From a virus, in IMG/VR virus record IMGVR_UViG_3300030333_006861, positions 1-46,136 of that record: a DNA stretch of 46,136 nucleotides; one strand, written 5' to 3'. The notes under the pieces were generated by a model. It was not told where the DNA came from. It saw nothing but the letters and a program-made list of their open reading frames with translations, and ran no database searches. Positions 6,152 to 33,300 of the stretch are shown piece after piece. Numbering within the stretch: the first letter of the stretch is position 1; each line of letters starts with the position of its first letter. Both the position numbers and the translations under genes were made by a program.

Positions 6152-6152
6152 T

Positions 6153-8141: not shown

Positions 8142-8144
8142 GAT

Positions 8145-11827: not shown

Positions 11828-11908
11828 AATATTTATATTAAAAAGAACATTAGCAATATTTACAATATATAAGTCTAAAAGCATGCTTGAGTCCTTGAGG
11901 AAAATAAA
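11828..11908 (+). other. Longest gap within the glycan island
   Basis: This 81-base AT-rich gap splits the island into two blocks. It contains a 10-base perfect palindrome AAGCATGCTT (11879-11888), which could be an operator or chance, and GAGGA (11897-11901), the ribosome site of the next gene. No convincing promoter or hairpin terminator is seen. Bases 11863-11879 are identical to 44610-44626 inside the LamG protein gene. Confidence 0.4.
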
Positions 11909-12715: not shown

Positions 12716-14218
12716 ATGGATACAAATAAACAAAAAATATGTTTGATCACCCCACCGTCGCCTTTTTTGCTCGACGAGCGAGTATTTTTACATTTGGGGG
12801 TTTTAAAAGTAGCTTCTTCTTTAGAAAAGAGAGGATATGAAGTTGATTTCATTGATTTAAGTGGGATTACAAATTTCTTAGATGTTATAGAGAGTTATAC
12901 ACAAGAAAATAAAGATGTTGTTTTTGGCATAACCGCAACAACACCACAAGTTCCTACTGCTGTACAAATTTGCAATGTTATTAAATCAAAGGGAGATTAT
13001 AAAACAATTTTAGGTGGACCACATTGTACGTTGATGTATGCCGCCTCGAAAAGGGAAAAAGCTAAAAATTGCAAGGATAGCGATCGCGCAACTAAAGATA
13101 TTGAAAAATTATCTAACATCTTTGATGTTTTGGTCTGCGGCGATGGAGAATATTCCATATTTGAAGCACTGGAAATAGATAAAGGCATTGTCGACGCAGA
13201 TAATAGGCAGTCGTCTCTCTTTTTAAAAAACAAGGATTTTTCTGAATTACCAATGCCGGCAAGACATCTTGTCGATATGAGCACATATAAATACTCTATT
13301 GAGGGGGTTAATGCTACAAGCCTGATAGCTCAGCTAGGCTGTCCTTTTAAATGTACTTTTTGCAGCGGTCGAAATTCACCTTTTCTGAGATCAATCCGTC
13401 AGAGGTCTTCTGAGTCGATTATAAAAGAAATCGATTTCTTGTACAAAACATATGGGTATCAAGGATTTATGTTTTACGATGATGAACTTAATGTTAACAA
13501 AAGTCTTGTACAATTACTGAATAAGATCACTGATTATCAAGAAAAGAATGGAGTAGAATTCAGGCTGAGAGGATTTGTGAAAGCCGAATTATTTAACGAT
13601 GCCCAAGCAGAAGCAATGTATAGGGCTGGCTTTAGATGGCTATTGACTGGATTTGAATCAGGAGATGACAGAATCCTTAAAAATATTAGAAAGAATGCAA
13701 CTCTTGACGATAATACGAGATGTGTGGAGATAGCAAAGAAACACGGACTCAAAGTAAAGGCTTTAATGTCTGTCGGTCACGCAGGAGAAAGTCATGAAAG
13801 TATTGAAAATACTAAAAATTGGCTTTTAAAAGTAGAACCAGAAGAATTTGATTGTACAATTATTACGACTTATCCTGGGTCTCCATATTTTGATTCTGCC
13901 GTAAAAGAAGGCGATCATTATGTATATACAGATTCGCGCAATGGTGATAAGCTTTATCAATCTACTATTAACTATTTGTCTGAATTAGACTATTATAAAG
14001 GAGATCCAGACGACGGATATGTTTCATATGTGTGGACTCAAAATATGACTGCAAGTGAAATAGTAGAAGAAAGAGGAAAGCTCGAAGCAGAAGTGAGAAA
14101 GAAATTAGGAATTCCGTTTTATACTGCCCGACCTGGAATGGTTTATGAGCATTCAATGGGAATGGGAAATGTTAAGATATCGGATCACATCTTAAGAAGC
14201 ACTCCTTCGAGTAAATAA
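12716..14218 (+). CDS. B12-binding-type radical SAM protein
   Basis: The product has 500 residues. The N-terminal ~180 residues form a cobalamin-binding-like Rossmann domain (KICLITPPSPFLLDER at the start, VVFGITATTPQVP, ILGGPHCT, CGDGEYSIFE). I do not see the DxHxxG cobalamin ligand motif, as is common in this class. The radical SAM core follows with Cys209-x3-Cys213-x2-Cys216 (GCPFKCTFC) for the 4Fe-4S cluster, then FMFYDDELN and GFESGDDRIL. Class B radical SAM enzymes often methylate unreactive carbons; others in glycan clusters epimerise or dehydrate sugars. Here it probably modifies a sugar or lipid carrier. The enzyme class is firm, the reaction unknown. Confidence 0.85.
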   Translation: MDTNKQKICLITPPSPFLLDERVFLHLGVLKVASSLEKRGYEVDFIDLSGITNFLDVIESYTQENKDVVFGITATTPQVPTAVQICNVIKSKGDYKTILGGPHCTLMYAASKREKAKNCKDSDRATKDIEKLSNIFDVLVCGDGEYSIFEALEIDKGIVDADNRQSSLFLKNKDFSELPMPARHLVDMSTYKYSIEGVNATSLIAQLGCPFKCTFCSGRNSPFLRSIRQRSSESIIKEIDFLYKTYGYQGFMFYDDELNVNKSLVQLLNKITDYQEKNGVEFRLRGFVKAELFNDAQAEAMYRAGFRWLLTGFESGDDRILKNIRKNATLDDNTRCVEIAKKHGLKVKALMSVGHAGESHESIENTKNWLLKVEPEEFDCTIITTYPGSPYFDSAVKEGDHYVYTDSRNGDKLYQSTINYLSELDYYKGDPDDGYVSYVWTQNMTASEIVEERGKLEAEVRKKLGIPFYTARPGMVYEHSMGMGNVKISDHILRSTPSSK

Positions 14219-14228
14219 AAGGATAATA

Positions 14229-15035
14229 ATGATTGTTGTAAATTACCTAGGCCAGCTAGGGAATAATATGTTTCAATATGCGTTTGGAAGGATATTGGCA
14301 GATAAGACTGGCTATAAGATGTTCTGTCAGCCAATTCCTGGCTTTCCTGTAACACAAGATACACCACCTGGCTCGATGTGTATGTTTCCAGAAATAGTTG
14401 TTGAAGGGCAAATAGTTGATATACCTTCATTGACAACAGAAAGAAAATTAAATCAGAAAATTATTTTGAACGGTTTTTTTCAAAGATATGAATATTACAA
14501 AGAATATAAAGACCAGATAAGAGAATGGTATAAGATGGAGCCACGAGATATTGGTCAAACAGATGATGATATAATAATCCATATTAGACTTGGAGATAAT
14601 GTATATACATTCGATCCAGAAACGCCATATATTATGCCTTTTGAATATTATGAAAAAGCCCTAGAAAACACAAGCTTTAATAAATTATATATTTGCACAG
14701 ATACTCCAGAGCATGATATTATTAAGAAATTTGCAAAATATAATCCAATATTAACTGCTCAAGATACTCTTGGGGACTTTAGGATTTTAAAATCTTTTAA
14801 CAAGATAGTGATGTCTCAAAGTACGTTTTCATGGTGGGCTGCTTTTCTTTCCGACGCCAGTGAGATATATACCCCAGTACCACAACCAGGAAACAGTAAG
14901 TTAATTAATGAGTGGAGTATCGGATCACCAGAGCATGCCTTATTCGTTGATGATGAAGAGAGATATAAATATATTAAACAATACGATGGAAATGAATGGA
15001 AGATGGTTCAACTTCAAGATATAGAAGAGAGATAA
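14229..15035 (+). CDS. GT11 family alpha-1,2-fucosyltransferase-like
   Basis: The product has 268 residues. Family GT11 landmarks are clear: GQLGNNMFQYAFG (8-20) at the N-terminus, HIRLGDN (118-124) corresponding to the GDP-fucose-binding HxRxGD motif, and SQSTFSWWAAFLSD (motif III). These enzymes transfer L-fucose from GDP-fucose in alpha-1,2 linkage; related ones can use GDP-colitose. Both donors could be produced by the gmd/colD/fcl-type genes in this island. The start is ATG 14229 with AAAAGGA just upstream. Confidence 0.88.
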   Translation: MIVVNYLGQLGNNMFQYAFGRILADKTGYKMFCQPIPGFPVTQDTPPGSMCMFPEIVVEGQIVDIPSLTTERKLNQKIILNGFFQRYEYYKEYKDQIREWYKMEPRDIGQTDDDIIIHIRLGDNVYTFDPETPYIMPFEYYEKALENTSFNKLYICTDTPEHDIIKKFAKYNPILTAQDTLGDFRILKSFNKIVMSQSTFSWWAAFLSDASEIYTPVPQPGNSKLINEWSIGSPEHALFVDDEERYKYIKQYDGNEWKMVQLQDIEER

Positions 15036-15036
15036 G

Positions 15037-15612
15037 ATGAATGAAGAAAAATATTATGACGTAGATTACTGGTATAATAATCCAGAAGAACATGCAGACG
15101 TTAGTAATTATAATAAGGATTACTACGCATATAAGATATATGAGAATGTAATTCTTAAATTGAAAGATATACCAGATGAAGGGTATATTGTCTTACTTGG
15201 TACCAATCGTTGTATTTCTTTTAATCTTTTGTGTGATCATTTTGGTCGCGAAAGATGTATCGGATACGATATACACAACCCAACAAACCACCCTAGGGTT
15301 ATTGTTAAAGACTGCAATTTATTATCAGATATAGATAATGTTCCAATTGCTTTCTGTCACAATGACTTAGGCAGTTTCCCAACAACTCCAAAATTAAAAG
15401 CACGCGGTCAGGAATGGGCTGTCAAAAATTTTGTTAAAGGCGGCTACTTTTTGGGAAGAAACAATTTAAACAGTGCCAAGTATAAGTCAGAGGAACTTAT
15501 GAAATCTAATGGCTTCGAAAATATTCATTTTAAAGACCTTCAAGACAAATATGATATGTCTAAATTCGAACCCTCATGGATCGAAGGTCATATGTTATCA
15601 AGGAAACTTTAA
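15037..15612 (+). CDS. SAM-dependent methyltransferase-like protein
   Basis: The product has 191 residues. The central part resembles a class I methyltransferase: GYIVLLGTNRCISFNLL in place of the glycine-rich SAM loop, an acidic end of strand 2 (CIGYDIH), and AFCHNDLGSFPTT at motif IV. The loop is not canonical (LGTNRC rather than GxGxG), so binding of SAM is inferred. It lies between GT11 and the 2OG oxygenase genes, so modification of a sugar is a reasonable guess. Confidence 0.5.
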   Translation: MNEEKYYDVDYWYNNPEEHADVSNYNKDYYAYKIYENVILKLKDIPDEGYIVLLGTNRCISFNLLCDHFGRERCIGYDIHNPTNHPRVIVKDCNLLSDIDNVPIAFCHNDLGSFPTTPKLKARGQEWAVKNFVKGGYFLGRNNLNSAKYKSEELMKSNGFENIHFKDLQDKYDMSKFEPSWIEGHMLSRKL

Positions 15613-16292
15613 TGTCTGTAATAAAAAATTATGATCCAAAAAAATATGATTTCTGTAAAGAGGTTGAAAAAGTCTTTTCTGTAAATTCAGGAGATTTAGA
15701 TCAATTACATATTCTAAGAAAAGAACTAATGCCAGAAGAAGAATTAAATTTTGGAAATGAAACAAAAACCGATTTTCATAAGCTTTTTTATGGGAATTTA
15801 AATTCTGAAAATGGTAAAGATATAAAAGAAATATACAATAAATTTATAAGTGAAGTTATATATCCAATTTTTAATCGATCGTTTTTATATCAGAAATTCC
15901 CAAGCTTCAGGGTACATATTCCAAAAGACAAGGCTATTCATAAGTGGCATTATGATTCAGACGACGATCACAGACACCCTGACTGGGAAATTAATTTTCA
16001 AATCGCCTTAACAAACATGTTTGATTCTAATGCAATGTGGATTGAGTCTGTACCAGGAATTGGAGATTATAAGCCTCTAGAGATGAAGGTGGGTCAGTTT
16101 GCTATATTTAATGGTAATAAATTAACCCACGGAAATAAGCCTAATATTACAAACAAAACTCGCGTAAGTATGGATTTTAGAGTATTGCCTTATGATAGAT
16201 ATGATGAGTCAAAATCTTTAGAGTCTGTTACTGCGAAACGGAAGTTCGCAATCGGCGGATATTATAATTTATATGAGGCTAAGAATGTATGA
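15612..16292 (+). CDS. 2-oxoglutarate/Fe(II)-dependent oxygenase-like
   Basis: The product has 226 residues from the chosen ATG at 15612, which overlaps the previous stop (TAATG) and follows AAGGAA (15599-15604) at a normal distance; an upstream in-frame ATG at 15576 lies deep in the previous gene and is less likely. The iron triad reads His113-x-Asp115 (KWHYDSDDDH) and His173 (KLTHGN), with Arg184 or Arg190 for 2-oxoglutarate. This matches the phytanoyl-dioxygenase/StrG-like group found in sugar and antibiotic clusters. It probably hydroxylates or oxidises a sugar. The next gene overlaps by 8 bases. Confidence 0.7.
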   Translation: MSVIKNYDPKKYDFCKEVEKVFSVNSGDLDQLHILRKELMPEEELNFGNETKTDFHKLFYGNLNSENGKDIKEIYNKFISEVIYPIFNRSFLYQKFPSFRVHIPKDKAIHKWHYDSDDDHRHPDWEINFQIALTNMFDSNAMWIESVPGIGDYKPLEMKVGQFAIFNGNKLTHGNKPNITNKTRVSMDFRVLPYDRYDESKSLESVTAKRKFAIGGYYNLYEAKNV

Positions 16293-16950
16293 ACCACTAG
16301 AAAAAACAATAGATCTTTTAAAAAAACAAGGGTATAAAATTGATGACCCATGGGATGTTGTGGAGGCTTTTGAAGACAAGGTGGCCAAATATTCCGGAAG
16401 CAAATATGCTGTAGCTACCGATAGTTGTACAAACAGTATGTTCTTGTGTTTAAAATATTTGAAAGCGGAAGGAGAGATTGAAGTCCCAAAAAAGACTTAC
16501 TTATCAGTTCCGCAATTGGTTATTCACGCTGGATGTAAAGTGAAGTTTGTTGACAAAGAGTGGTCGGGCGTTTATAAATTAAATCCCTACCCTGTAATCG
16601 ACGGCGCCACGAGATTCACAAAGGGGATGTATATTCAAGATACATATCATTGCTTATCATTCCATATTCGTAAGATTTTGCCGATTGCAAAAGGTGGAAT
16701 GATCTTGACTAACAACATCAAAGCAGTCGACTGGTTTAAAGCAGCCGAGTATGAAGGAAGGGATCGAAGAGTGCCTCATGACGAAATGCCTGAGCCAACA
16801 ATTATGGGATGGAATATGTATATGCCTCCCGAACAGGCTGCTAGAGGTATAACTATTTTTGAAGACTTGAAAGATAATAATGAAGATTGTGGAGGTTCAT
16901 GGAAATATAAAGACCTTTCAGGATATAAAATGTGGAGAGATAACTATTAG
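16285..16950 (+). CDS. Short DegT/DnrJ-family PLP protein
   Basis: The product has 221 residues from ATG 16285 (GAGG at 16275-16278 is 6 bases upstream; an in-frame ATG at 16273 is a weaker choice). The N-terminal and central parts match the DegT fold: FEDKVAKYSGSKYAVATDSCTNSM, VIDGATRF with Asp106 for PLP, and SFHIRKILPIAKGG, where Lys130 occupies the Schiff-base position. In the last motif the usual Glu of GEGG is Lys. The protein stops about 150 residues short of the family's ~370, lacking most of the C-terminal domain. It could be a compact aminotransferase, a partner subunit, or a truncated remnant. Confidence 0.7.
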   Translation: MYEPLEKTIDLLKKQGYKIDDPWDVVEAFEDKVAKYSGSKYAVATDSCTNSMFLCLKYLKAEGEIEVPKKTYLSVPQLVIHAGCKVKFVDKEWSGVYKLNPYPVIDGATRFTKGMYIQDTYHCLSFHIRKILPIAKGGMILTNNIKAVDWFKAAEYEGRDRRVPHDEMPEPTIMGWNMYMPPEQAARGITIFEDLKDNNEDCGGSWKYKDLSGYKMWRDNY

Positions 16951-16958
16951 GAATTAAT

Positions 16959-17900
16959 ATGGGTGATGTTTATTTGGTAACTGGTGGAACGGGAATGGTA
17001 GGCTTTGCACTTAAGTCTTTGCTTAAGGGATCAAAAGCTGTTTTTTTATCATCCAACATGTGTGATTTGCGAAATAAAGTAGCTACACAATATTTGTTTA
17101 ACTCAGTCAGACCTACTCACGTTATCCATCTAGCTGCCAAGGTTGGAGGTGTTAAAGCAAATTATGAAAATCTAGGTGATTTTTATTATGATAATATTCG
17201 AATCAATACAAATGTTCTTGAAGCCTCAAAACAAACGAAAGTAAAAAAATTAATATCCCTTTTGAGTACATGTATATATCCAGATAAAGTCGACTATCCA
17301 TTAACAGAAGAACAAATACACAATGGAGAGCCTCATTATACTAATTTCTCATACGCATATGCTAAAAGAATGTTAGATGTACAGTCCCGCGCATACCGTG
17401 AGCAGTATGGTTGCAACTTCATCACAGCAGTTCCGAATAACCTATATGGTAAGCGCGATAATTTTGATTTAGAAAATAGTCACGTTATACCTGCTCTCAT
17501 AAGAAAAATATGGGAAGCCAAATTAAACAAAACCGAAGTTGTCATATGGGGAGATGGGACACCATTGAGAGAGTTTACATACTCTGAAGATATTGCAAAA
17601 GCTTTACTATTCTTATTAGATAACTATGATAATAAGTATCCAATCAATATTGGAAATACGCAAGAGCACTCTATATCATCATTAGTTGAAAATTTGTGCT
17701 ATATTTTAGGATATAGTGGAGATATTATTTGGGATACAACAAAATTAAGTGGACAATATAGAAAGCCATCTAACAATAAGAAATTCTTAGATCTAGGATG
17801 GAATCCCAATAATTATACTTCTTTAGAAGATGGCTTAAAAAAGACTTGCAATTGGTTTAAAATAGTATATCCAAAAGTACGCGGTTACGCAGGAGATTAA
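16959..17900 (+). CDS. fcl: GDP-4-keto-6-deoxymannose epimerase/reductase (Fcl/ColC type)
   Basis: The product has 313 residues. NADP loop GGTGMVG (9-15) opens the protein. Catalytic residues line up with E. coli GDP-fucose synthase at a constant offset of four: Ser103, Cys105 (STCIYP), Tyr132, Lys136 (YAYAK) and His175 (SHVIPAL). The Cys/His pair performs the 3,5-epimerisation, the Ser-Tyr-Lys set the reduction. [12 protein letters not shown] and [10 protein letters not shown] are further family signatures. The product would be GDP-L-fucose from the Gmd product, or GDP-L-colitose if it receives the ColD product, since ColC belongs to the same family. The sequence alone does not separate the two. 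Confidence 0.88.
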
Positions 17901-17901
17901 T

Positions 17902-18900
17902 GTGGAACAAAACAATCAAAAAACAGCGCTTATAACAGGAGTCACGGGTCAGGATGGTTCATATTTGTCTGAACTGCTATTATCTAAGGGATATAGAGTA
18001 GTCGGACTCAAAAGAAGAACAAGTACAATTAGGACGGAGCGCATTGACCATATTTATGGAAATCCTAATTTTATATTAGAGTATTTTGATTTGAATGATT
18101 CGTCTTGTATGTGGTCATTGATGTTGAAATATAAACCAGATGAAATATACCACCTTGCAGCACAATCACATGTTAGAGTATCTTTCGATGTTCCAATTAA
18201 TACAGTCGACGGCATCGCGATGGGGACACTAAAACTACTAGAAGCAATGCGACAAATTGTTCCAAAAGCAAGATATTACCAAGCATCATCATCAGAAATG
18301 TTTGGTGATAATCCAAATATACCTTTTACTGAAGAATCGAGATTACAACCTGCGTCCCCTTATGCATGTGCTAAAGTTTTTGCTCATAACCTATGCAGAA
18401 ATTATAGAGAATCTTATGGTTTGCACGTTTCAAGTGGTATTCTTTTTAATCACGAATCTCCAAGAAGAGGAGAAACTTTTGTGACAAGAAAGATCACTCT
18501 TGCTGCAGCCAGAATTAAATTAGGATTACAGAAAAGATTGTCTCTTGGTAATATATATTCCAAGAGAGATTGGGGATTCGCCGGAGACTATGTTAAAGTA
18601 ATGTGGCTTATGTTACAGCAGGACACACCTGATGATTATGTTATAGCTACAAATGAAACGCATACGGTTGAAGAATTTCTTCATCACGTATTTCACCACG
18701 CTGGTTTGGGAGATCCTGCTTTTTATGTAGATATTGATCCTAAATTATATAGACCCCATGAAGTACCACTTCTCTTGGGAGATTATTCTAAGGCAAAAGA
18801 AAAATTAGGCTGGGGTCCTAGTATAACCTTTAAAGGACTTGCAGAAATGATGTATGATCATGACTATGATCTAGTTCTAAAAACAGAAAAGGAGAAGTAA
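17902..18900 (+). CDS. gmd: GDP-mannose 4,6-dehydratase
   Basis: The product has 332 residues, slightly shorter than E. coli Gmd. Signatures are complete: [10 protein letters not shown] (13-22), SSSEMFG with Glu132, Tyr154-x3-Lys158 (SPYACAK) and [16 protein letters not shown]. These match E. coli Thr132/Glu134/Tyr156/Lys160 at an offset of two, with Ser130 in place of Thr. It converts GDP-D-mannose to GDP-4-keto-6-deoxy-D-mannose, the branch point for GDP-fucose, colitose, perosamine and rhamnose. The start is GTG at 17902, directly after the upstream stop. Confidence 0.96.
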
Positions 18901-20111: not shown

Positions 20112-20784
20112 ACGCCCAAGAAAAAATCAATATTTTACAAAAGTTCATGAAGATGCAATTATAAAATACTCTGGAACTACAGATAATAAAGTAAGAACAG
20201 ATTTATATATAAAATATATAGGACCGGTCTTTGATGAAATGGTTGACAAGATAGTTTACACATATAAATTTACTACTTTGCCAAATATCGACCCCCTTAA
20301 AGAAGAGTGTAAAATATGGTTAACAACCATTTTAGACAAATATGACCCTTCAACAGGGTCAAAAGCTTTTTCATATTTTAGCGTTATTACTAAAAATTGG
20401 TTTATTCATAAAGTTAAGAAGAACTCAAAAAAGACAAAAACTGAAATTACATACGACGATATATCTCCTGATATAGAATCAACCTATCTGTCTGTTCAAA
20501 ATGAATATGTTAACGCTAGAGAGAGGTTTGAGTTTATGTATCACTTAAACAAGGAGATGGAGCATTGGACAGGTCTTAAATTAAAAGATAATGAAAGGAA
20601 GGTTCTTGAAGCTGTAAAACTATTAATGTCGAGCGCCGAAGAAATTGAAATTTTTAATAAAAAAGCTATTTATCTGTATATAAGAGAGTTAACTGGCTTA
20701 AACACAAAGCAAATTGTTAACAATTTAAATAAAATTCGAAGCAGATATAGAACATTTAAAGTGCGCTGGGACGATGATACATGA
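20080..20784 (+). CDS. Late-transcription sigma factor, T4 gp55-like
   Basis: The product has 234 residues. The N-terminus is a run of Lys/Arg. A sigma region 2-like core sits around residues 80-125: LDKYDPSTGSKAFSYFS followed by ITKNWFIHKVKK, which matches the core-binding and promoter-melting helix of gp55 and of small sigma factors. A C-terminal helical part (KAIYLYIRELTGL) could be a region 4-like or DNA-binding element. It would redirect host RNA polymerase to phage late promoters. The gene precedes the baseplate block it probably activates and overlaps both neighbours. Confidence 0.75.
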   Translation: MTEEKKKKRSRRPRKNQYFTKVHEDAIIKYSGTTDNKVRTDLYIKYIGPVFDEMVDKIVYTYKFTTLPNIDPLKEECKIWLTTILDKYDPSTGSKAFSYFSVITKNWFIHKVKKNSKKTKTEITYDDISPDIESTYLSVQNEYVNARERFEFMYHLNKEMEHWTGLKLKDNERKVLEAVKLLMSSAEEIEIFNKKAIYLYIRELTGLNTKQIVNNLNKIRSRYRTFKVRWDDDT

Positions 20785-21083
20785 GTAAAGTTGACAAACT
20801 ATTAGAAGAATCGATTACAAACATCAGAGATGACAGGGCTGTTACCTCTGATTTACTTATTGATATTATAAAACATCTTAAAAAAGATCCAGTTAACCAC
20901 CAATACGTCGGCGGCATCGCTGCAAAATATCTAGAGACGCTTCAAAGATCAAACGAACAACTTGTTAAGATAACCTCAATGTTACAGAAGCAAGATAAGA
21001 AGTCTATAAAATTATCAGACGACGACAAAAACGAAATCTACGACCTCATCAATAATCCAGATGAAGATGATAAGGAGGCATAA
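20781..21083 (+). CDS. Small helical protein, possible small terminase subunit
   Basis: The product has 100 residues, almost entirely helical by pattern. The middle (about 15-70: DDRAVTSDLLIDIIKHL, then NHQYVGGIAAKYLETLQRSN) resembles the central coiled region of T4-like gp16 small terminases, where a helix pair carries an Arg near its start and an Asn-x-x-L/I-x-K segment near its end. The C-terminus is acidic. This is a weak, by-eye resemblance; no large terminase is in the window. An accessory to the sigma factor next door is an equal alternative. Confidence 0.4.
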   Translation: MSKVDKLLEESITNIRDDRAVTSDLLIDIIKHLKKDPVNHQYVGGIAAKYLETLQRSNEQLVKITSMLQKQDKKSIKLSDDDKNEIYDLINNPDEDDKEA

Positions 21084-21086
21084 TGA

Positions 21087-23888
21087 ATGGCGAACAAATC
21101 ATTTACATTCGATGTCCCTATTGGTGTATTAAATAATCTTAGATCAAAGACCATCTCTAAAACAATGGATGGTCAATCTATTTATGGTGATGAAGTTTCG
21201 ACCCAATCTCGGTCTTGGGTTGAGCAAGCTTTTTCAGAAGATGTATTAGAAGACACTGGTCCCTATAAAGCTATTGTTCTTCGTGTGGAAGTAAAGCCTG
21301 TTCCAAGAGTGCAGACAGAAACGTTCCAGCATCATCTATCTCCTGGGTCCAAAAAATATGTGCGAGGACCAAGACCTATGCTTATTCACCTTAAGTGTAG
21401 AATACCGGAGCTTCACGCACATCTTAAAGCTCCGCGCAAAGGAAACACTGATGATCCAAATTATCCAGATCATCACTTAATTGAACCACACCCAACTTTT
21501 ACTGCAATAAGTGATTCAGCCCTTATGGCAAAAGTTAAAGTTGGTGATGTGGTTATTGTTGATTTCGCAGATCGTAAAAACTTTACGGAGCCAATATATG
21601 TATCTCCGATTACAGCCCAGAAAAACCAGACAGTTATTAACGTTACTGCTGCAGCTTTCGATCCGAACTGTGCCCGCGCCGGAATCGGAAATAACGGGGC
21701 TAACCTTGGAGGAGGTTTTGGGATAGCTCCACACCAAGGCAATCTAAGCATGCGTTTAAGGGCTAGAAATTCAAATGCAAAAGCAGTAATGTTTGGAGAC
21801 AGCCAGATGTTGGGAACCATGGGCAACTTCTTACAAAAATATGTTGAGTCATTGGGATATACTGTTGTGGGCACCTCTCTTGATACTTCTGGAACTAAAA
21901 TAGGATCCAAACCTAGAATCGCAAGATCAGGCGCCGGCGTACACAATTTTATTCTTAAGAAGCCAAAAGACCCGCCCGGTCCTCTTGGGGCTTATTGGCA
22001 ATTTTTAGAAAATGCACTTAAAAGAGGAAATCCAGATCTTGTTGTTTGTGTGCTGGGCGGAAACGATGCTCCATATATTAAAAGAACATCTAGGTACTTA
22101 GATTTAGCTAACAAAATTAGATCTGTTGCCCCAAATTGCAAATTTCTATGGTTTGGTCCCCCACCGGCAACTTTAACTAAATCTGGTAGTGATTCTATGC
22201 TTAAACATAGACCAAAAAGGTCTGCTTTCGCAAACAAACTAAAAAGCGTACTTGGAGGCATTAGTGGGATGACATATATAATACCAGAACAATATATGCC
22301 AAACTATTTTAAAGGAAAGAATCGAGACGGACTACATGTCAATGCCGCCGGCGCCAGAGAGTTAATAAATAATCTTAAAAAACAAGGAGCAACGGCGCCT
22401 GTGACTGATGCTCCCCAAAAGAAGGTTGCTCCAGAAAGAAGTTCAAATGAGCCCGATACGTCTGCTGAAGAAAGAGGAAAACAATGGGCTAGCTCGGAAC
22501 TTTTAGCTGCAGCCCGCTCCATTGTCTCTTCTGAAATGGGCAACTTTGCTGATCGAGGATCTGCCCGACAATTTTTAAAAGAAAAGGCATCTATGTTATC
22601 AGACCACTGGGGGTCTCCTTCAAAAAATGATGCATATGATAAGATAAAGAATAGAGATTTTATATCTGGATTTGTAGCGGCTTCTAAACCTGGCTTAAGT
22701 TCTGTAACTTGGCAACCAATAAGAATTGCAGAGTGGCAGATAATCTCAAATCAAAAACACGGCTTGTCAGGAACAGGAAGGATTCATGGAACGTCTGCAG
22801 GTCCTCAATACGGACCAGAAACTTTTACTCACAAAATCGTTGGGCAAGGATTATCTCACAAGGGAGTTGCAGGTATGAATGCCAGTATTGATAAAGCTAG
22901 AATAAAATGGAACCAACTCAGGGCTAACATGAAACATCTTAGTTATAAGATCACGGCAGCACAACTTGTGAATATGAATGAAGAACCATTACAAGGACCG
23001 CTAGCCTTGCCACCTGATCCGAAATGTCCAAAGCAAATGGGTCAAGTGGCAGGAACACCACCCGGCTCTACCCCTTCAATACCTGAAGTTCCTATTCCAA
23101 AAGGAATGAACAAAACATATGTCCCTATCGTTGAGGACGCAATTTATTATGCAACAAAGATAACAAAGCCATCGAAAATAGATCTTAATACTTGGCACCA
23201 ATGGATGAGAATTATGTGTTGGGTTGAATCAATGGGCGTCATTAATGCGATCAACAAACGAGGATATACCGGTTTATATCAGTTCGGCAGAACTACCTGG
23301 AATGGAACTCGTAAGTTTATAAAAAAGAAAGGCTGGCCAGATATAGGTGAGTATGTAAAAACCTTAGACGCTGCACTTAATCCATATATTAATTCTATGG
23401 CAGGCGGAGCATTGCTGCATATGAATCTTAGGGGACTGGGCTCACTAGAGGCTAAAGGTGTGCACCTTTATATGGCACACCAGCAAGGACTTTCAGGATT
23501 AAAAAGCATATATAGAAAACAAAAAGGAACAAACAAGTGGGAAGGAAATTCTCTTGTTCACAAGCAGGGACCAGGAGACTTTAGAAGAGCTTGGGCAAAC
23601 GGGTGCAGTAGTTTCAAAGTAAATGGAAAATCACTTTATTCTCAGGTAACGCCGAAAAAAGGAGCGCCTACGATGACGGCTGCCGTGGCTGCAACAAAGT
23701 GCCTACCATCACACTTCTATGCTATGTGGATTAGAAAGTGGAACTTTGCAACTAAACAAGTATCAAAGAAGAGATCTAAACTCGTAGGGGGCGTATCAAA
23801 AAGCAGTAAATATGCTAGCAGAATGGCTCGACCCCCTGGAGCAAACCAAGATGCTGAAATAGCGAAACCTAAAGGGTGGCCACCATAA
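21087..23888 (+). CDS. Baseplate hub/lysin with SGNH and transglycosylase-like domains
   Basis: The product has 933 residues; AAGGAGG (21072-21078) precedes ATG 21087. Residues ~55-180 share GNTxDPNYPDHH and GDVVIVDF with the next protein and may be an OB-like hub domain. Residues ~230-430 are SGNH-hydrolase-like: GDSQ (237-240), GGND (324-327), DGLH (414-417). Residues ~465-620 contain SDHW (505-508) and KNDAYD, possibly an M15-like domain. Residues ~675-810 are lysozyme/lytic-transglycosylase-like: Glu714 in WVESMG, GYTGLYQFG (726-734), MAHQQGLSG. It would deacylate and cut surface glycan or peptidoglycan during injection, like T4 gp5 in role. Position before spike and wedge genes supports this. 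Confidence 0.75.
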   Translation: MANKSFTFDVPIGVLNNLRSKTISKTMDGQSIYGDEVSTQSRSWVEQAFSEDVLEDTGPYKAIVLRVEVKPVPRVQTETFQHHLSPGSKKYVRGPRPMLIHLKCRIPELHAHLKAPRKGNTDDPNYPDHHLIEPHPTFTAISDSALMAKVKVGDVVIVDFADRKNFTEPIYVSPITAQKNQTVINVTAAAFDPNCARAGIGNNGANLGGGFGIAPHQGNLSMRLRARNSNAKAVMFGDSQMLGTMGNFLQKYVESLGYTVVGTSLDTSGTKIGSKPRIARSGAGVHNFILKKPKDPPGPLGAYWQFLENALKRGNPDLVVCVLGGNDAPYIKRTSRYLDLANKIRSVAPNCKFLWFGPPPATLTKSGSDSMLKHRPKRSAFANKLKSVLGGISGMTYIIPEQYMPNYFKGKNRDGLHVNAAGARELINNLKKQGATAPVTDAPQKKVAPERSSNEPDTSAEERGKQWASSELLAAARSIVSSEMGNFADRGSARQFLKEKASMLSDHWGSPSKNDAYDKIKNRDFISGFVAASKPGLSSVTWQPIRIAEWQIISNQKHGLSGTGRIHGTSAGPQYGPETFTHKIVGQGLSHKGVAGMNASIDKARIKWNQLRANMKHLSYKITAAQLVNMNEEPLQGPLALPPDPKCPKQMGQVAGTPPGSTPSIPEVPIPKGMNKTYVPIVEDAIYYATKITKPSKIDLNTWHQWMRIMCWVESMGVINAINKRGYTGLYQFGRTTWNGTRKFIKKKGWPDIGEYVKTLDAALNPYINSMAGGALLHMNLRGLGSLEAKGVHLYMAHQQGLSGLKSIYRKQKGTNKWEGNSLVHKQGPGDFRRAWANGCSSFKVNGKSLYSQVTPKKGAPTMTAAVAATKCLPSHFYAMWIRKWNFATKQVSKKRSKLVGGVSKSSKYASRMARPPGANQDAEIAKPKGWPP
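21453..21476 (+). repeat. 24-base identity shared by the two hub paralogs, copy 1
   Basis: Bases 21453-21476 are identical to 24242-24265 and encode the DPNYPDHH segment in both paralogs. A match this long is far beyond chance and marks duplication or gene conversion of the shared N-terminal region. Confidence 0.85.
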
Positions 23889-26311
23889 TGAAAAAGCATT
23901 TCGATGAACCCTTGGGAAAATTAAATAAACTTCCTAAGAAACAATTTAAAAAAGCGATAGACATATCAAGTAAAACCACTACTCTTGTAGATTTAGAAAG
24001 ACGCGCTGCTGAGATAATGCACGAAAAAGAAAACTCTGTTCTTGAGAAGACCGGACAATATAAAGCAATGGTTTTAAGAGTCGACAGAACTCCAAACAAA
24101 GTTGACAATACTGGTTTTTTAGATTTTCTTAAAAAGAATAACAAAAACAATTCTGCGGGATTTAAATTTGTTACCATTAAAGCATACATACCAATTATGC
24201 ATAAAGGGTTGTATCCTCTTCCTCGCGTAGGAAATACTGCAGATCCAAATTATCCAGATCATCACATTATTGATATGTATCCAACTTTCACAGCCAGAAA
24301 CGATGATCTTATTATGGACAGTGTAGGTGTGGGAGATATAGTCATTGTAGACTTTAGTGAGAAAAATGAATATACTGGTGATCCTATTTTTACAACCCCA
24401 ATTGTAACTAATGAAGCTCAAATTTTAGCAAGGCTAGGAACAACTCTTGCTAATAGATTTAATAGACCAGGGTGTCCTCCTGCTAGCGTTCACACACCCG
24501 GTCAGAGTGTGGCATCTTCAACAAGTATATCAAAACACCAAGGATTAGAAAGTTTGCGTGCAAGAGCAAGAAAATCGAACATGAAAGGTTTGGTTATAGG
24601 AGATAGTCAAGGCTGGGCAATGGGTGCAGGTATGTCTAAGTTTTTAGAAAACAATTTAGGTTTAGATATGATAAGAGCCACCTCTCCTGTGGGTCCATGG
24701 AACAAGATGGGTAAAAGAAAGGTGCTGGGAAAATCAGCTAAATCTTTGGCTGTAATGACCGGCATACGCAAAAGTTCTGACGGCTACTGGCCAGTTTTAA
24801 AGAGGCACTTAAAACAAGTTGGAGACGGCGTTATATGTATTGTAGGAGGAAGAAATGCTCCTGCATCTGAGAAAATTCTAGCCGCAGCACTAAAAAAGAT
24901 TTTCTCTGCAGCGCCAAATGCAACAATATTGTGGGTTACTCCACCAGGTAAGGTCCCTGCATGGAAAAAACGAGCTTATATTGTTAAAAGGCCAGTATAT
25001 CCAAGTCCAAACAACGGACCACCCTACAAACCAATTGCTCTAGAAAAAAGAACATCTCATGTGAAGTTAAGAAAAAATGTCGCTGCCGCAGCCGCCCAAT
25101 TTCCCAATAAAGTATACCATATAGACACATACCCATTGATGCCAAATTATGTTAAAAATGGATCAAAAAATAAGAAAGGAGATGGACTACATGTAACTTC
25201 TTCTGATTTGCCCGAAATGTTAAATGCAATATCTAATATGACAGGGCTAAGCGTGCCTGTAGATAAAACAAGGGGACAAAAAAAGGTAGCAATTGCAAAC
25301 TCTGGAAAAGATAATACTACTCCAAAAAAACAAGGAGGACCTACTGTATCTTCTCATCCTTCTGCAGGACCTCCTTGTTCTCCTCTTGGGTCCATGGGGC
25401 AACACGGCGGCGCCCCAATGCCTCCACATGTCCAAGGATTGGTACCAGGCGGCAAAAGAGCATCTTCTTTCCCATCAAGCTTATCACAGATTAATCTGAA
25501 AAATGTAATGCCAGGGCTTATCGATAAGTGGTCCAACCCACATGGTATCGACAAGGCGTTCAAAAGAGGGATAAAACCGGGAATGGATCCGTGGTATACT
25601 TGGTGCGTGTTATGTATGGCATCAGCAGAAGTAGTAGAGAGATATTGGAGAACGTGGGATCCCACCGCGAAACTTCGCATGTCTGACCACTGGCGAGGAA
25701 AAAGAGGTGGAGAGAATGGAAACCACAAAGGACCAGCAATGGACTTTGAAATAATATATAAAAACGGCGCCGTCCCTTCCGTGTATCAGTGGTGCTCAAT
25801 GAGATATTTAATGGGTCAAGGTCGAATTCCTGCAGGGGGTCTAGGACTTTATATGAATTTTAATGGCTTAAAAGGAGCCAGAAACAGATTACACCCACCG
25901 GGCATTACTGGACCTGGACTTAATGAGCAAGGAAAAAACACCAGCAGATCGTTAAAAGCCCCAGGTGGATCAACAAACGTACACTATGACTATAGAGGGT
26001 TTGCTGATTTTAAAATGGGAAAAGGAAGAGGAGTCTCCAGCCCTGGAAATATTGGAGGTCATTTTTGGTGGAGAGCTAGTACCCAAGGTACAGTTTCTGA
26101 TGATATAAGAGCAACTGCTTCAACCAGACGCTATCTAGAGTCTACAGAAAAAGGAAAACAAGTTCTTGCTTTACTTAATTCGTGGAGAAATGGAAGCTAC
26201 GGAAACAATCCGCCAGGATTTAAATTTACACAAATAAGTGAATATGTTCCAAACTGGAGTCAGGTTTTAGGTCTTGAGCCATGGGTAGGAAATCAGAAAG
26301 CAACTAGTTAA
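23888..26311 (+). CDS. Baseplate hub/lysin paralog with SGNH and M15-like peptidase domains
   Basis: The product has 807 residues from ATG 23888, which overlaps the previous stop (TAATG) and lies 8 bases after AAAGGGTGG; an in-frame GTG at 23876 is less likely. Residues ~55-175 repeat the preceding protein's N-terminal domain. Residues ~230-440 are SGNH-like: GDSQ (238-241), GGRN (320-323), DGLH (432-435). A Pro/Gly-rich linker follows. Residues ~545-735 look like a zinc D,D/L,D-peptidase of M15 type: His613 and Asp619 in NHKGPAMDF, and His699 in NVHYDY. The His-Asp spacing is one residue shorter than the usual M15 motif. It probably cleaves peptide stems while its paralog cleaves glycan strands. 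Confidence 0.72.
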   Translation: MKKHFDEPLGKLNKLPKKQFKKAIDISSKTTTLVDLERRAAEIMHEKENSVLEKTGQYKAMVLRVDRTPNKVDNTGFLDFLKKNNKNNSAGFKFVTIKAYIPIMHKGLYPLPRVGNTADPNYPDHHIIDMYPTFTARNDDLIMDSVGVGDIVIVDFSEKNEYTGDPIFTTPIVTNEAQILARLGTTLANRFNRPGCPPASVHTPGQSVASSTSISKHQGLESLRARARKSNMKGLVIGDSQGWAMGAGMSKFLENNLGLDMIRATSPVGPWNKMGKRKVLGKSAKSLAVMTGIRKSSDGYWPVLKRHLKQVGDGVICIVGGRNAPASEKILAAALKKIFSAAPNATILWVTPPGKVPAWKKRAYIVKRPVYPSPNNGPPYKPIALEKRTSHVKLRKNVAAAAAQFPNKVYHIDTYPLMPNYVKNGSKNKKGDGLHVTSSDLPEMLNAISNMTGLSVPVDKTRGQKKVAIANSGKDNTTPKKQGGPTVSSHPSAGPPCSPLGSMGQHGGAPMPPHVQGLVPGGKRASSFPSSLSQINLKNVMPGLIDKWSNPHGIDKAFKRGIKPGMDPWYTWCVLCMASAEVVERYWRTWDPTAKLRMSDHWRGKRGGENGNHKGPAMDFEIIYKNGAVPSVYQWCSMRYLMGQGRIPAGGLGLYMNFNGLKGARNRLHPPGITGPGLNEQGKNTSRSLKAPGGSTNVHYDYRGFADFKMGKGRGVSSPGNIGGHFWWRASTQGTVSDDIRATASTRRYLESTEKGKQVLALLNSWRNGSYGNNPPGFKFTQISEYVPNWSQVLGLEPWVGNQKATS
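24242..24265 (+). repeat. 24-base identity shared by the two hub paralogs, copy 2
   Basis: This is the second copy of the segment at 21453-21476, in the corresponding place of the downstream paralog. The flanking bases diverge quickly, so similarity beyond it is mainly at protein level. Confidence 0.85.
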
Positions 26312-26332: not shown

Positions 26333-27361
26333 ATGGTAATGAATTCACAAAGCAAACTAGCAGAAGATTTGGAAACTCTCAGAAATTTTAAAACAGAAGG
26401 ACCAAAATCAAAAGTATATGCTTTTAATCCGGGTAGCTTGGGAAAAGAATTAGATGAAACATTGGCAGCTATGTCTGAACGAGACCGAAATGCGATGTAT
26501 GGTGGAGCAAACTGCGGTATCATGCTTGAAGGTGTTCCAAATCATATTGAGGCAGAGTGCGAAAAAGGACATACTTTTTATGGACTAAATAACTCTTTCA
26601 TTGTGCTGGGTCGAGATCGTCCTGGCGCCGTAGATACGGGTTACGGTAGCACCCCAGAAACCCAAACAGGCATGATAGATATGTCTGTTGGTAGAAAACC
26701 ATATGACACCACAAAGAATGTAAACCCAGATTTTCGTAAAGATTCTTCTAGAATCTATATAAGTCAAAAATCAAATATTGATGATGAAGAATATTTTGAT
26801 TTGGTGCCTGGACCAAGCACCCCAATGTCAGAACGAGACTCAACAGTTGGTATCAAAGCGGACGTAGTTAGGATTGTCGGTAGAAAAAACATTCGCCTTG
26901 TTACAGAATATCAAGTTGAAAATTCGTGGGGAGGTATGATAGAATCCATAGGTGGAATCGATCTTATTGCAGGAAATAGAACTGAAGGTGTGTTAGAACC
27001 TCAACCAATGGTAAAAGGCGGTAATTTGATTGATTGTCTCGACGACCTCGCAAAACAAATAACAAATTTAAATACTATATTAAGTGGATTTATAGAAAGT
27101 CAAATGAAATTTAACAAGAAGGTTCAAAAACACAGCCACCATGGCGCCTTTTTCGGAATAAAAGGCTTGCCAGATTTTGAAGTAATTCTCGGCGGAGCTA
27201 AATTAGCACTTGATATGTTTAATAAAACCAAAACAGATCAAATATCTCATAAGTTTAATCTAGAAGATTGGGGTACAAGATATCTCACTCCTGCAGGTCA
27301 CGCGGAAGGAGATCCAGATATTAAAACCTATATTTGTAGTCGTTATAATAATGTAAACTAA
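26333..27361 (+). CDS. Putative baseplate spike or structural protein
   Basis: The product has 342 residues, with AAAGGAAA (26316-26323) before ATG 26333. Residues ~90-235 read as repeated beta strands (SRIYISQKS, VGIKADVVRIVGRKNIRLVT, GGIDLIAGN), the type of pattern seen in beta-helical spike and puncturing proteins of contractile phages. A helix with TNLNTILSGFIESQ follows, then KHSHHGAFFG. I cannot assign a named family. Placed between the hub/lysin pair and the giant baseplate protein, it is most likely a virion component near the central spike. Confidence 0.6.
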   Translation: MVMNSQSKLAEDLETLRNFKTEGPKSKVYAFNPGSLGKELDETLAAMSERDRNAMYGGANCGIMLEGVPNHIEAECEKGHTFYGLNNSFIVLGRDRPGAVDTGYGSTPETQTGMIDMSVGRKPYDTTKNVNPDFRKDSSRIYISQKSNIDDEEYFDLVPGPSTPMSERDSTVGIKADVVRIVGRKNIRLVTEYQVENSWGGMIESIGGIDLIAGNRTEGVLEPQPMVKGGNLIDCLDDLAKQITNLNTILSGFIESQMKFNKKVQKHSHHGAFFGIKGLPDFEVILGGAKLALDMFNKTKTDQISHKFNLEDWGTRYLTPAGHAEGDPDIKTYICSRYNNVN

Positions 27362-27386: not shown

Positions 27387-30300
27387 ATGGCAAAATTTTC
27401 AAATTTTTATGTAGAAGTAGAGGGCTATGGCGGATCCGCGTATAAGCCAGATGACGTTGGGGGAATAGACCATAGCGCAGCCATGCTAAATGCACTTGCT
27501 AACGCTAGAGCCAGAGCACCCGCAGAGATAATATTAACAAAACAAAGCAGTTTTCTACAACAAACTAGCGAAGAAATTATTAAAATTATTAAAGAAGCAA
27601 ACGCCTCTGGTAAAAATGCAGCTGAAGTAGAAGATGCTATCAAGGTGGCTGGTATGAATCTACCTTTCCACGATGCTTTAGGGGAAAAACTTGTTTATAA
27701 ACAAATTAATTTTTCTGACAAAGCTTTGGGGAAAAAACCAAATGAAGCCGCCGCCATGGTTGAATTATTAAAATACCTAGAACAGAACAAACTTAAGTTT
27801 ATAGATTTAGGTCATGAGATTGCCGGCTCCGGTAAATCATTTAAAGTTGCAGACTTAGATCAAGAAGAAGATGCAGATACTTTAAAACTTTGGGAAAGTA
27901 TGGGAATTTTAACTGGAACAGGAGATCCAGAAATTGTATATGCAACAACTCTTCGCTTTCTTGTTCAGGTTGACAAATTAAGAGATTTGTTAATGTCCTT
28001 AACACCAAGCGTTATTCAAAAAAGAACTGCTGAAGAATTTATAGGAGAAGCAAAAGACGATGTTACCCCTGTTTGGTTGAGAGAACCTGGCACGGAAACA
28101 ATAGATTCTAATAAATTATTTAAGCCCCCGTTTTTTAAAAGCATAACGGAATTGGCTAAATATGATGTTTCGCATGTCGGAGGAATGCTTCCTGAAGAAG
28201 TATTATCCGCTTGGGACGAAGGCGATTTTTCTACCGAAAAAGCCGATCAAGCCGCTATTGACGCAGGCATATCAGATTTCCGACGCTCTTTATATACTCC
28301 ACTAACCGAAGCAACACATATGGTTGCAACCCCAATTACACTTTTAGGAAAAACAGCCTTAGATAATGCTTTAAAACATGTCGGCGCCACGGTCAAACAA
28401 ACCAGCGATATATTTGATAGACTTAAAGAATCAACACTGCAAAACCCTTCTCCGACTAAATTTTATAGTCCTGTCGAAGGAAACGGGGAACCAAAAGAAT
28501 TACATGCATTGTTAAGAGGAACAAATTTGCCTGGATTGCCTACGGCTTATTATCCAGATACAACCTTGGGTTCGACAGCACAATTTACATTAGTTAGAGT
28601 AAAGAAGCATCACGTTGGACCCGGCGGAAAATGGCATGAGGTTGAAATTGTTGCAACCAACAATAAAAAAATAAGAGATCTCACTGATCAATTGATCATA
28701 GAAGCAGAGTCTGAAATATCTAAAGCTCAAGAACTTATAGGCTCAGCTAAAACAAATGAAGAAAAAGCAAAAATACAAACCAGTCTAGATGAGAAACAAC
28801 ATGGGTATGCAAAAACTTTGTTCACAGGCTGGATTCGAACTTCGCACTTGTTGTTGCTAGACACTCCCAAAAATAAGTTTTTAAGGTCAATCGGCATTGG
28901 AATCAAGAGGTTGACAACCGATTCAGATCTTAGATACGACGGCACTCCAGTTAGCAAATTAGATATTTGGCATAAAAGAAAGATAAACGTCCCGGTGTTG
29001 GCTAAAAATATTGCCGAACCATGGAAAAGTATGTATGAGATTCCTATTCAGCTTCCTCATAAGGCTTTTACTATGTGGACAAAAGCCGAAGCTGCAGCAA
29101 TGATACGCAGGATTAAAAGATACCGAAGGGCTAAAAAGATCATCGCAAGGCTTAAGAAGGAGCATGCCACCAGCCGCTTGGGGGTCGACCCCAATGCACC
29201 TGGCTATAAACTTAAAGGAAACGTTTCACTAGACGATAAGTACGGACCAGATGGTAAAATCAAAGGCGGCGTCACAAAAGAAGAAGCTAAATTTTTAGAG
29301 CAAATGAAACTTCTTAAAAATAAGAAGAAAAAGTATGGTTTTGCAACTGTTGTTGATAAAGTACATGAAGGTTACGACGCGAAAGTCGGCGCAGTGCACA
29401 CGATCGAATATTATGAGGGTGGGGATGCGGAGAAATTCGGCAGTGTCGGCGTAGACAGCAGCAGTCTGGAGTATGTGGGCAAAGTCTCCGACGCCGGCAC
29501 CGGTGCCGAAATCGGAATGACATATAGACGGAGAAGACTAGCAGACAGAACATTCTTTGAAATTAGTGAACCTAAAAAACCAAGAACTCCTTCTTTAAGA
29601 CAATTAAGGAAAAACCCTAATTTTAAAAAAGAAAGAATACGCGCCTCAATGATTAGGGGTATTGCTCTTGCTTTAGACTTTTATAATAAAGATATTGAAA
29701 GAATATTTATCAACACAAAATATTATGAAACAAATAAAGAAACACTTTCCAAAGGAAAAGATAAATGGCCAGATCGAGGAATGATTCTTAAAATTGTTGC
29801 CAAAGAACTTTACGATGCAGGACTATCTGAGCCTGTATCCAATAATATGTGGCACAAACCAAAAAAGAAAAAGCTTCGTATATTGTGTCGTATCCCTGCA
29901 AACGTGTTTGATGGATATCCTTTAAAAACGACTGAATTTGAGTTCGACCCTCCTTTCATACCTGCGAAAAAGAATCTAATACCAACGCCGATGTATGGAG
30001 GACCTTCTCCCGTTACAGATCTTAAAACACACTATACCTTTACTCAGACATACAAATGGTTTGAAAAGAATGTAATAGGAATTCAAGAGACTGCTCGTAC
30101 AGAATTTGAACCAGATAAACAAATTGAAGTTAATTCAAACTTGAAAAGAGTATTAAAATACTACGACAGCAAGCACAAAAAGTCTGGAAAAAAAGTTTTG
30201 TTTCCTAGTTTTATGGCAGGACCCCTTAGCTTAAGACGCGAAGCTCACGCTTTAGAATTGTGGAAATATTCCTTTAGAGATTTCTTAAATAGAAACGACT

Positions 30301-33300
30301 TTGACTTCCGGAATCCTCCGTGTACAGATGATGGACAACCCAAGCCTAAAGGCTCAGACGGTGTGCCATCTCCACAAAACCCAAAAGCAGAATCAGTAAT
30401 TGAACTTGGCTTCAACAAAAGTTATCAATTATTATATGTTATGTTTAATGGTCAACCAATCAGAATTGGTATAAATTATTTCAGAGAAAAAACAATAATG
30501 GGTCATCCAAGAATCAATGCTTTGATTCATGCTTCACCTAAAATATTGGAAGACTACGCCGGCGACCCGTCAAAGAGGATGCCATGGACGAAATGGGTTT
30601 TAACGTATATTCATCCCCGAGGAGAGGCTATTATACGACCATCAAAGAGAGAGCTTGAGCCTAAGCCTCCTCCAAAGTTAAAGAAGAAACCATTGTCACA
30701 TAAAGAACTTGAAAGACAACAAAAGCTTCTTCAAAACATGAAGGATAGAGACGATAAAGTCAAGAAAGCAAAAAAGAAAAAATTCTCTGTTCTTGATAAT
30801 ACAATAAAAAATATGGACAAATTGTCTAATAAGATTAATAATTTTGAATCTGCATATACTGAAATATTAAATAGATATGGTCTAGACCAATTAGCAAAAA
30901 CCCTGGCAGTATGCTTGGTAGAAAAAGCCGGCGACCCTGAAGAACTACTGATAAACATGGCTCTTAATCCTATAACTGCTGTCTTAGAGGAAAACCAAAA
31001 ACGAATTGAAGAATCTGCTGAAAAAAACAAAACACTTAAAAAAATAACAAACATATTAGACCTTATACCGTTTGAATGTACTGTAAAGGTATTAGGCGAT
31101 ATATGCACGCTGGAATATAAAAAAGAAACAGATGTGCCTCCACAAGTAATACCTGGTCTTATTAATTCTGACGACAGATTCAAAAAAGCGGGAGATTTGA
31201 AAAAAGCCCTGGCAGCTCCAGGTGAACAACCAGCTTACGGCACGCCTGCTGACGCCAAAACAATCGTCGCAATTCGACCTGAAACAGCATATGCAGGAGT
31301 ATATAAAGACGATGGAGAGGGAGATCAAAATCCGGATATAGCAACAGATAAACAATGGAACCTGAAAGACACAAGCTGGAAGCCATATCCCTTTCCTGAT
31401 GATTTTAAAAACAGCGTTAAGCTGGTCAAAGAGTGGCAAACATATCTAGCAAATGATGTAATTGAATATAGTAGAGCACTTTATCCAGATAAAATGGACG
31501 GATATTTTCTTCCTGGCTCATGGGAAATAGATACAGGATACGATGGCGGAGGCGACGGTTCTATGTTGCCAATTTTTAAAGATCCATTGATAGGAAATTT
31601 GTGGTCAAAGCCAAAAGAAAACGAGCCTTCCGTTTTTAATTTGGCTATTGATGGTATCTTTGGACCAATTACAGAAAGGCTAACCATGTGGGAGCCAGAC
31701 ATTCTGTCTGACAAGCCAACCGGAGATCCGTGGCTAACCAAGGCTGTGTACGACAAAAGGCTTAAATTGGTTTCAGATTGGAAGCAAAAAAAGCAAGAAG
31801 CGGCAGAAGCAGCCGCCGGCGACGAGTTGGTAGTTGGTCCTGGTTCAACTGGAGAAATGGTTAAAAATGTACAAAAATTTCTCACAATAACTGCTCCGAT
31901 GCTCTTAGGTCCAGCCTCAAAAATTCCTCATTATATAGCTAGAGGAAACGACCAAGGAGACGAAGTTATACCGTTATCTGGCGTCTACCAAAAGAAAGAT
32001 GGCAAGTGGTACATACAATCACGTAAAAAACACGGCAAAAAAGGAAAATTTAAACTTAAAGAAGAAAGATTTAAAATTGATGGAAAATGGGGAAATCTTA
32101 CTTGGGAGGCTTTCTGGAATTTTGCCATGGCAGCATCTATACAATCACAAAAAGAAGGTATTTCAAACTTTAAATGGAAAACCGTATATGATGATGTGGT
32201 TAAAAGAATGGTGTCAAAAGGCGCTACAGAGCAAGATCTTGTGTCTTTGGATACTTGGTATGCTTTTGTATTCTCTAAAGGATATACTGGCTTCTCGCAA
32301 GACTATGGTCTTTCAAAAAATACTTATGATATTTTAATGGATGAGCTTAATAGATATTTAAAATTAAAAGCTTCTGGAGACGTAAGCGCCAAGCTCGGCT
32401 TAAAAAGACCACAACATGTATTAATGCATTCTCCCACTGCTCCTCCAGGTTATTACTGCAAGTCAGTCAACCCAGGACCATGCGATCGAATATATGAAAA
32501 ATTGATGAAAGCGACTCATAGAATGGGAGTCCTAGCTAGGAAAGAGTTTACACCGGTAAAAGAAACAGATGATAGAGACCCTGAAGGAATAGGTGAAGCA
32601 ACAAGTATACCTCATCTTTTAAATGTCATTGAAAAGCTGGAAGTAGAATATCAAGCATGCGCGAGCAGAGTAGGATTTATTACTATCCAAGGAGAGGCAG
32701 ACGGCGAACCATTAAGTGTATTTTTTCAAGGGACAGAACAAGAAATAGAAGAAAAGTTAAATGAATTAGCAAGAAAACAAATAAGGGTCATGAGCGCCGA
32801 AACTAGTCGAACTCCTGATGGAAAAGTAGGAGTGGCGGGCAATCCTAATGAACCAAATCCAGGCTTGAATGCTGAACAAAAAGCTAAAATTGATGCAAGA
32901 ATTGAAGAACTGAGACAACAGGGGATAAAGAATACTCCTAAAACATCTGGAGAAGCAGATAAATGCAAAACACATCGCCAAGCTCTCCATGATGCTCTTC
33001 ACCTATCTTACGGAAATAACCCTGGGGCTCTAGACCCAACAAAGATGACACCGACACATTTGTGGCCCGGTATGGGATTTACTGAGTTTGAGCAATCGTT
33101 GGGAGATGAAAACGCAGCAAAATTCAGAGAAGCTAGAATAAAAGCAATGACTCAATACATGAGTTGTATTGAATCTCAAGTTGTTGATGTGAGAATGAAG
33201 TTAAATGATATGGCTCCTACTCAGTATCAAACAATGGGGGATGTTGTGCCCTTTCCACAGGACATAAGACAATTGGCGATGCAACTTAAGGTACATCAAA

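Follow-up and report, generated by a model that had tools for sequence, protein, structure and literature searches.

O-acetylation of peptidoglycan blocks lysozymes, and SGNH domains carried on phage tailspikes deacylate surface polymers. Within a tail hub, an SGNH domain is known from Staphylococcus phage 80alpha, where it forms the C-terminal domain of the gp27-like hub protein Tal (gp59) (PMC7048315). O-acetylation of the C6 hydroxyl of MurNAc also precludes the action of lytic transglycosylases, a block that is relieved by SGNH-type Ape esterases (PMC6174289), and DUF459 corresponds to the PatB family of peptidoglycan O-acetyltransferases (PMC9487903). A sequence-only reading of the DNA studied here had described two adjacent baseplate hub paralogues that share an SGNH domain, and had regarded such a domain in a hub as nonstandard. 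In view of Tal this judgment needs narrowing, although the precedent comes from a siphophage of a Gram-positive host and concerns a different hub protein. A partial literature search found no report of an SGNH-lytic transglycosylase fusion in a T4-like hub slot.

The window, that is, the entire 46,136-nucleotide stretch analyzed, is a genome fragment of 46 kb from an uncultured T4-like myovirus, in which a gp55-like late sigma factor gene is followed by the two hub-slot genes, here termed P1 and P2, and then by gp25 and gp6. P1, P2, their domains, and the two conserved flanking genes described below lie on the plus strand. Two adjacent open reading frames (ORFs) were found at 21087-26311 as previously described: P1 (21087-23888; 933 aa) comprises an N-domain, an SGNH domain, and an SLT domain, and P2 (23888-26311; 807 aa) comprises an N-domain, a diverged SGNH domain, and an M15-like C-domain. 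The start of P2 is most likely the ATG at 23888, which overlaps the P1 stop codon as TAATG; the alternative start GTG at 23876 would yield 811 aa. Comparison with the loci of relatives identified a conserved protein on either side of the slot, one of 100 aa directly upstream (20781-21083) and one of 342 aa directly downstream (26333-27361). The latter contains repeated segments of the KADxVRIIGRExIKLVT type and is possibly a beta-helical spike; it had no PDB match, and its similarity to the beta-helix of T4 gp5 was not significant. This gene may take the role of the C-terminal triple-stranded beta-helix of gp5. Between the hub slot and gp25 lies a giant ORF (27387-39020; 3,877 aa) that clearly exceeds its counterparts in relatives (2,000 to 2,500 aa), two of which (in L045 and L046) are in two pieces. 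For peptidoglycan-binding-like motifs noticed in it by eye, PF01471 gave no confirmation. Elsewhere in the window, positions 4877-18900 hold a sugar cassette with glycosyltransferase, aminotransferase, epimerase, and GDP-mannose-dehydratase-like genes. No tRNA genes were found in the 46-kb fragment, and the late sigma factor was found in only two metagenome-assembled genome (MAG) contigs, binned as Actinomycetes and Flavobacteriales.

P1 and P2 are homologous, with 33% identity over 500 aa (BLASTP, E 4e-55). The 24-base identity reported between their genes proved to be real: GATCCAAATTATCCAGATCATCAC occurs at 21453-21476 and again, exactly, at 24242-24265, in the same frame in both genes, and encodes DPNYPDHH within the N-domain. 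Among 200 shuffles, the longest match between the two genes was 15 bases. In P1, the N-domain spans residues 1-180 (21087-21626) and was modeled with five beta strands, mostly at a pLDDT above 80. Assignment of the two proteins to the hub is favored by synteny with gp25 and gp6 together with domain logic, the genes lying upstream of gp6 in the baseplate cluster as does T4 gp5. The likeness of the N-domain to the OB fold of gp5/VgrG is only suggestive: a match to VgrG had an E value of 0.48 and was not reproduced with A11, and hhalign gave no significant match between the N-domain and T4 gp5.

Since whole-protein searches of viral contigs and phage records with P1 and P2 found no relatives, gp6 and the sigma factor were used as queries instead. 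Scans with these two proteins yielded ∼115 distinct related marine phage loci, in which, wherever the contig was long enough, the order was sigma factor, 100-aa protein, hub slot, 330-aa protein, giant ORF, gp25, and gp6. The first set of loci comprised 114 slot proteins, 97 of which matched the N-domain profile. A single N-domain gene occupied the slot in 71 of the first 80 loci; 2 loci had two such genes, 3 had three, and in 4 none was detected; a second scan added more tandem sets. Each tandem set tested grouped together in a quick N-domain tree, P1 and P2 among them (SH-aLRT 88; L065, 99; L078, 98; L126, 99; L102, 100; L109, 96). This grouping points to separate tandem duplications as the origin of the sets, in line with the duplication previously proposed for P1 and P2. 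The enzymes found in the slots of relatives included M15/VanY, amidase, M23, M74, SLT, GH19, phage lysozymes, muramidase, and others; judged from these domain assignments, the wall enzymes of the hub slot are interchangeable across the ∼115 loci. Some slots were enzyme free, with an N-domain protein of ∼200 aa (L188, 10977-11570; L193, 4214-4807; L070, 11008-11652). In the hubs of L050, L051, L064, L092, and L110, the N-domain and the C-terminal region are separated by alpha/beta-hydrolase-like segments (YFFHG or YFLHG type), which may represent a further type of esterase in this slot. The hubs of L061 (11016-14294) and L063 (10994-13876) have an unassigned middle region (GKGVFTGYPDI / GKGIFTNMYANLG) that by eye resembles a TIM-barrel glycosidase.

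The SGNH domain of P1 (residues 229-434; 21771-22388), searched alone, matched three families of the Pfam SGNH clan, PF13472 (5e-7), PF04311/DUF459 (4e-5), and PF00657 (2e-4), all with scores below the curated Pfam cut-offs. A combined P1 and P2 profile had one clear top match in the PDB, the SGNH domain of OafB (6se1; E 0.01). In an AF2 model of P1 residues 1-450, built from 30 aligned sequences and with a mean pLDDT of 68, the SGNH core was reasonably predicted, and the 49 PDB fold matches at an E value of ≤1e-3 were, apart from a few designed scaffolds, enzymes of the SGNH type; OatA, the peptidoglycan O-acetylesterase Ape1 (4k3u), and OafB were among them. The full SGNH residue set is present (Ser239, Gly282, Asn326, Asp414, and His417). 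The fold predicted for P1 is hence the one that the earlier reading had anticipated. Together, the Pfam clan matches, the model with its fold matches, and relatives scoring above cut-off make P1 a sound predicted member of the SGNH hydrolase superfamily. In BFVD, unnamed viral proteins such as A0A1B1IUR4 matched P1 1-450 along its length, and proteins of this kind thus appear to have been deposited already without names. When phages and plasmids were searched with the SGNH domain by tblastn, all matches were at chance level.

At the C terminus of P1, the proposed lytic-transglycosylase-like domain was confirmed as an SLT domain (residues 705-818; 23199-23540), with PF01464 scores of 23.3 to 27.1 bits against a cut-off of 21.3 and, on a sub-segment, a match of 3e-6, above cut-off. 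Its catalytic Glu714 sits in an ES...GLYQF motif, and a homologous domain is present in the hub of L105 (P1 C-domain match, 3.6e-15). The C-domain of P2 instead matched the hub of L061 (5.6e-15), which is the only hub in that locus and differs from P2 in its middle region; these separate affinities support the suggested module exchange. In M15/LAS peptidases, the usual zinc ligands form an H-x6-D...H pattern. The P2 region at 25598-26065 (NHKGPAMD...GGLGLY...VHYDYRG) is reminiscent of such M15-type enzymes, and the residue numbers originally given, His613, Asp619, and His699, are right when counted from the ATG at 23888. His613 and Asp619 are 6 residues apart (His-x5-Asp), not the usual 7, placing the first His one residue off, while the homologue in L061 has a His at the usual spacing. 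Pfam lent no support: the P2 C-domain matched no M15 profile, nor PF08291 or PF05951, and its hhalign comparison with another M15-like hub was not significant. Its M15 identity is thus a motif-level suggestion.

SGNH domains were also found in seven other hub loci (L056, L078, L083, L105, L126, L159, and L204), so the architecture recurs as the sequence-only reading had proposed to check. Scores in L159 and L083 exceeded the Pfam cut-offs, and DUF459 matched P1, L056, L126, and L159, above its cut-off in L126 and L159 and below it in P1. The Ser, Gly, Asn, Asp, and His set was complete in P1 and in all seven other domains; no GDSL family was among those reported for 118 other slot proteins. 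L105 has the same N-SGNH-SLT arrangement as P1, L083 is N-muramidase-SGNH, and L204 combines SGNH with M23 and adjoins a lysozyme hub; in L126 and L078 the SGNH protein is one of three tandem hubs, and in L159 it is one of two. L066 (GDSN type) and L147 (E 0.046) were excluded from the count. In L066 (10991-13603), the GDSN-type SGNH-like stretch lies between the N-domain and an amidase domain and was not matched by the hub SGNH profile; the hub SGNH alignment was too divergent to serve as a scanning pattern. By Pfam only, glycan cutters occurred in 4 of the 8 SGNH loci and in at most 14 of ∼107 others (Fisher, 0.02). When homology calls were included, the counts were 7 of 8 and ∼20 of 107 (1.4e-4), in a post hoc test on loci lacking full independence (L126 is close to L159) and with the lysozyme-like partner in L126/L159 called by motif.

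These observations fit a scheme in which P1 and P2 would be tandem copies of the baseplate hub-slot protein, the shared N-domain anchoring each protein in the tail tip, a virion position that we infer, and the remainder consisting of replaceable wall enzymes. During entry, the SGNH domain of P1 would free the C6 hydroxyl of MurNAc in peptidoglycan from O-acetyl groups, and the SLT domain in the same chain, which would require a free C6 hydroxyl to form 1,6-anhydro-MurNAc, would then cut the glycan strand. Homology does not fix the substrate, because the closest Pfam family consists of transferases and the best fold matches include platelet-activating-factor (PAF) acetylhydrolases and sialate or xylan esterases. 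Deacetylation followed by cutting is the most economical reading, because O-acetylation precludes lytic transglycosylase action and DUF459 is the PatB family. That P1 is an entry-time peptidoglycan O-acetylesterase unmasking MurNAc for a glycan cutter, with the SGNH copy of P2 probably structural, we consider about evenly poised between right and wrong. Alternatively, the domain might act outside the wall, deacylating a polymer of the cell surface (O-antigen, capsule, or exopolysaccharide), and thereby help the tip to reach the outer membrane, as could be argued from the many tail fibre or tailspike esterases among the viral fold matches of P1 and from the top PDB sequence match, OafB, being an O-antigen acetyltransferase domain. 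We regard this as unlikely, given that in 8 of 8 loci the SGNH domain occupies the hub slot and is either fused to a wall hydrolase or next to one, and that DUF459/PatB is among the best-matching families.

The SGNH domain of P2 (24569-25264), recognized by alignment to P1 and in the nine-domain alignment, with a PF13472 match of 0.014, has diverged. GDSQ and DGLH are present in both proteins, and DSQ and DG[LVI]H are invariant across the nine hub SGNH domains. The GxN motif, in contrast, is not shared as had been claimed: GGND of P1, with Asn326, aligns to GGRN of P2, where the Asn comes one residue later. The Ser and the Asp-x-x-His are thus retained in P2, but Ala replaces the Gly of block II and Arg the Asn of block III; P2 is the only one of the nine aligned domains to depart at these positions. 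In a weakly supported SGNH tree, its branch measured 1.86 changes per column and that of P1 0.56. The block II Gly and block III Asn form the oxyanion hole of SGNH enzymes (PMC6174289, PMC9487903); PatB1 has an Arg-based one (PMC9487903). Because both replaced residues build the oxyanion hole, the P2 copy is, on this alignment, probably degenerate and inactive, and would serve a structural role. The claim that both proteins share the N-domain and an SGNH domain therefore holds for their presence and leaves a second working SGNH enzyme in P2 unsupported. P2 would then have arisen by tandem duplication and carry another C-domain, possibly a zinc peptidase of the M15 type. In the baseplate envisaged earlier, able to deacylate, to cut glycan strands, and to cut peptides, the SGNH and SLT domains of P1 that would confer the first two abilities are supported, whereas neither SGNH activity of P2 nor a proven M15 peptidase is.

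The divergence of P2 also bears on a different proposal, that the SGNH domain is a noncatalytic spacer or sugar-binding module of the hub, inactive in P1 and P2 alike. At least one copy persists with no standard active site, and SGNH proteins with altered sites exist (PMC9487903), yet in P1 and the seven other hub domains all five residues (Ser, Gly, Asn, Asp, and His) stay in register despite great sequence divergence, which makes this proposal quite improbable. A lipase or phospholipase aiding passage of the tip through the outer membrane could be argued from the PAF-acetylhydrolases that head the fold matches of P1 and from a further match to a phospholipase A1. This reading is very improbable, as the PAF-acetylhydrolase matches reflect the common fold and the co-occurrence with glycan cutters would be left without a reason. 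The peptidoglycan O-acetylesterase reading of P1 can be extended, tentatively and with less than even confidence, to the whole group: uncultured marine T4-like phages would use a duplicated, module-swapping hub slot, in which an SGNH O-acetylesterase and glycan cutters counter O-acetylation at entry, the two paralogues of the present phage forming a mixed hub in which one SGNH domain is active and the other is not. If this is true, a tail-tip deacetylase would be a phage answer to the O-acetylation barrier. More broadly, a hub slot that exchanges and stacks wall enzymes in one to three tandem genes across ∼100 marine phage contigs is a resource for multidomain wall hydrolases and raises the question of how two or more paralogues fit into a single tail hub.

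Among known systems, P1 resembles 80alpha Tal, and likewise phi11 gp54, in being a tail hub protein with an SGNH/GDSL domain and a suggested role in wall degradation (PMC7048315). In Tal, however, the SGNH domain is C-terminal in a gp27-like siphophage hub of a Gram-positive host, with, in the available part of that source, neither a lytic transglycosylase in the chain nor a tandem paralogue reported. With PatB/DUF459 and Ape1 the domain shares the SGNH fold and residue set, together with the DUF459 matches and the presence of Ape1 among the fold matches; these are cellular bacterial enzymes, not virion proteins, and P1 scores below the DUF459 cut-off. The SGNH esterases of phage tailspikes and tail fibres are virion associated, as we infer for the hub slot; they belong to fibres or spikes and target surface polysaccharide, whereas the domains described here share a hub slot with wall hydrolases. 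T4 gp5, the baseplate hub subunit and tail lysozyme, likewise unites a structural N-domain with a glycan cutter in one chain, encoded upstream of gp6. There the enzyme is a GH24 lysozyme followed by a C-terminal beta-helix, whereas here the N-domain is joined to SGNH and SLT or M15-like domains in two paralogues.
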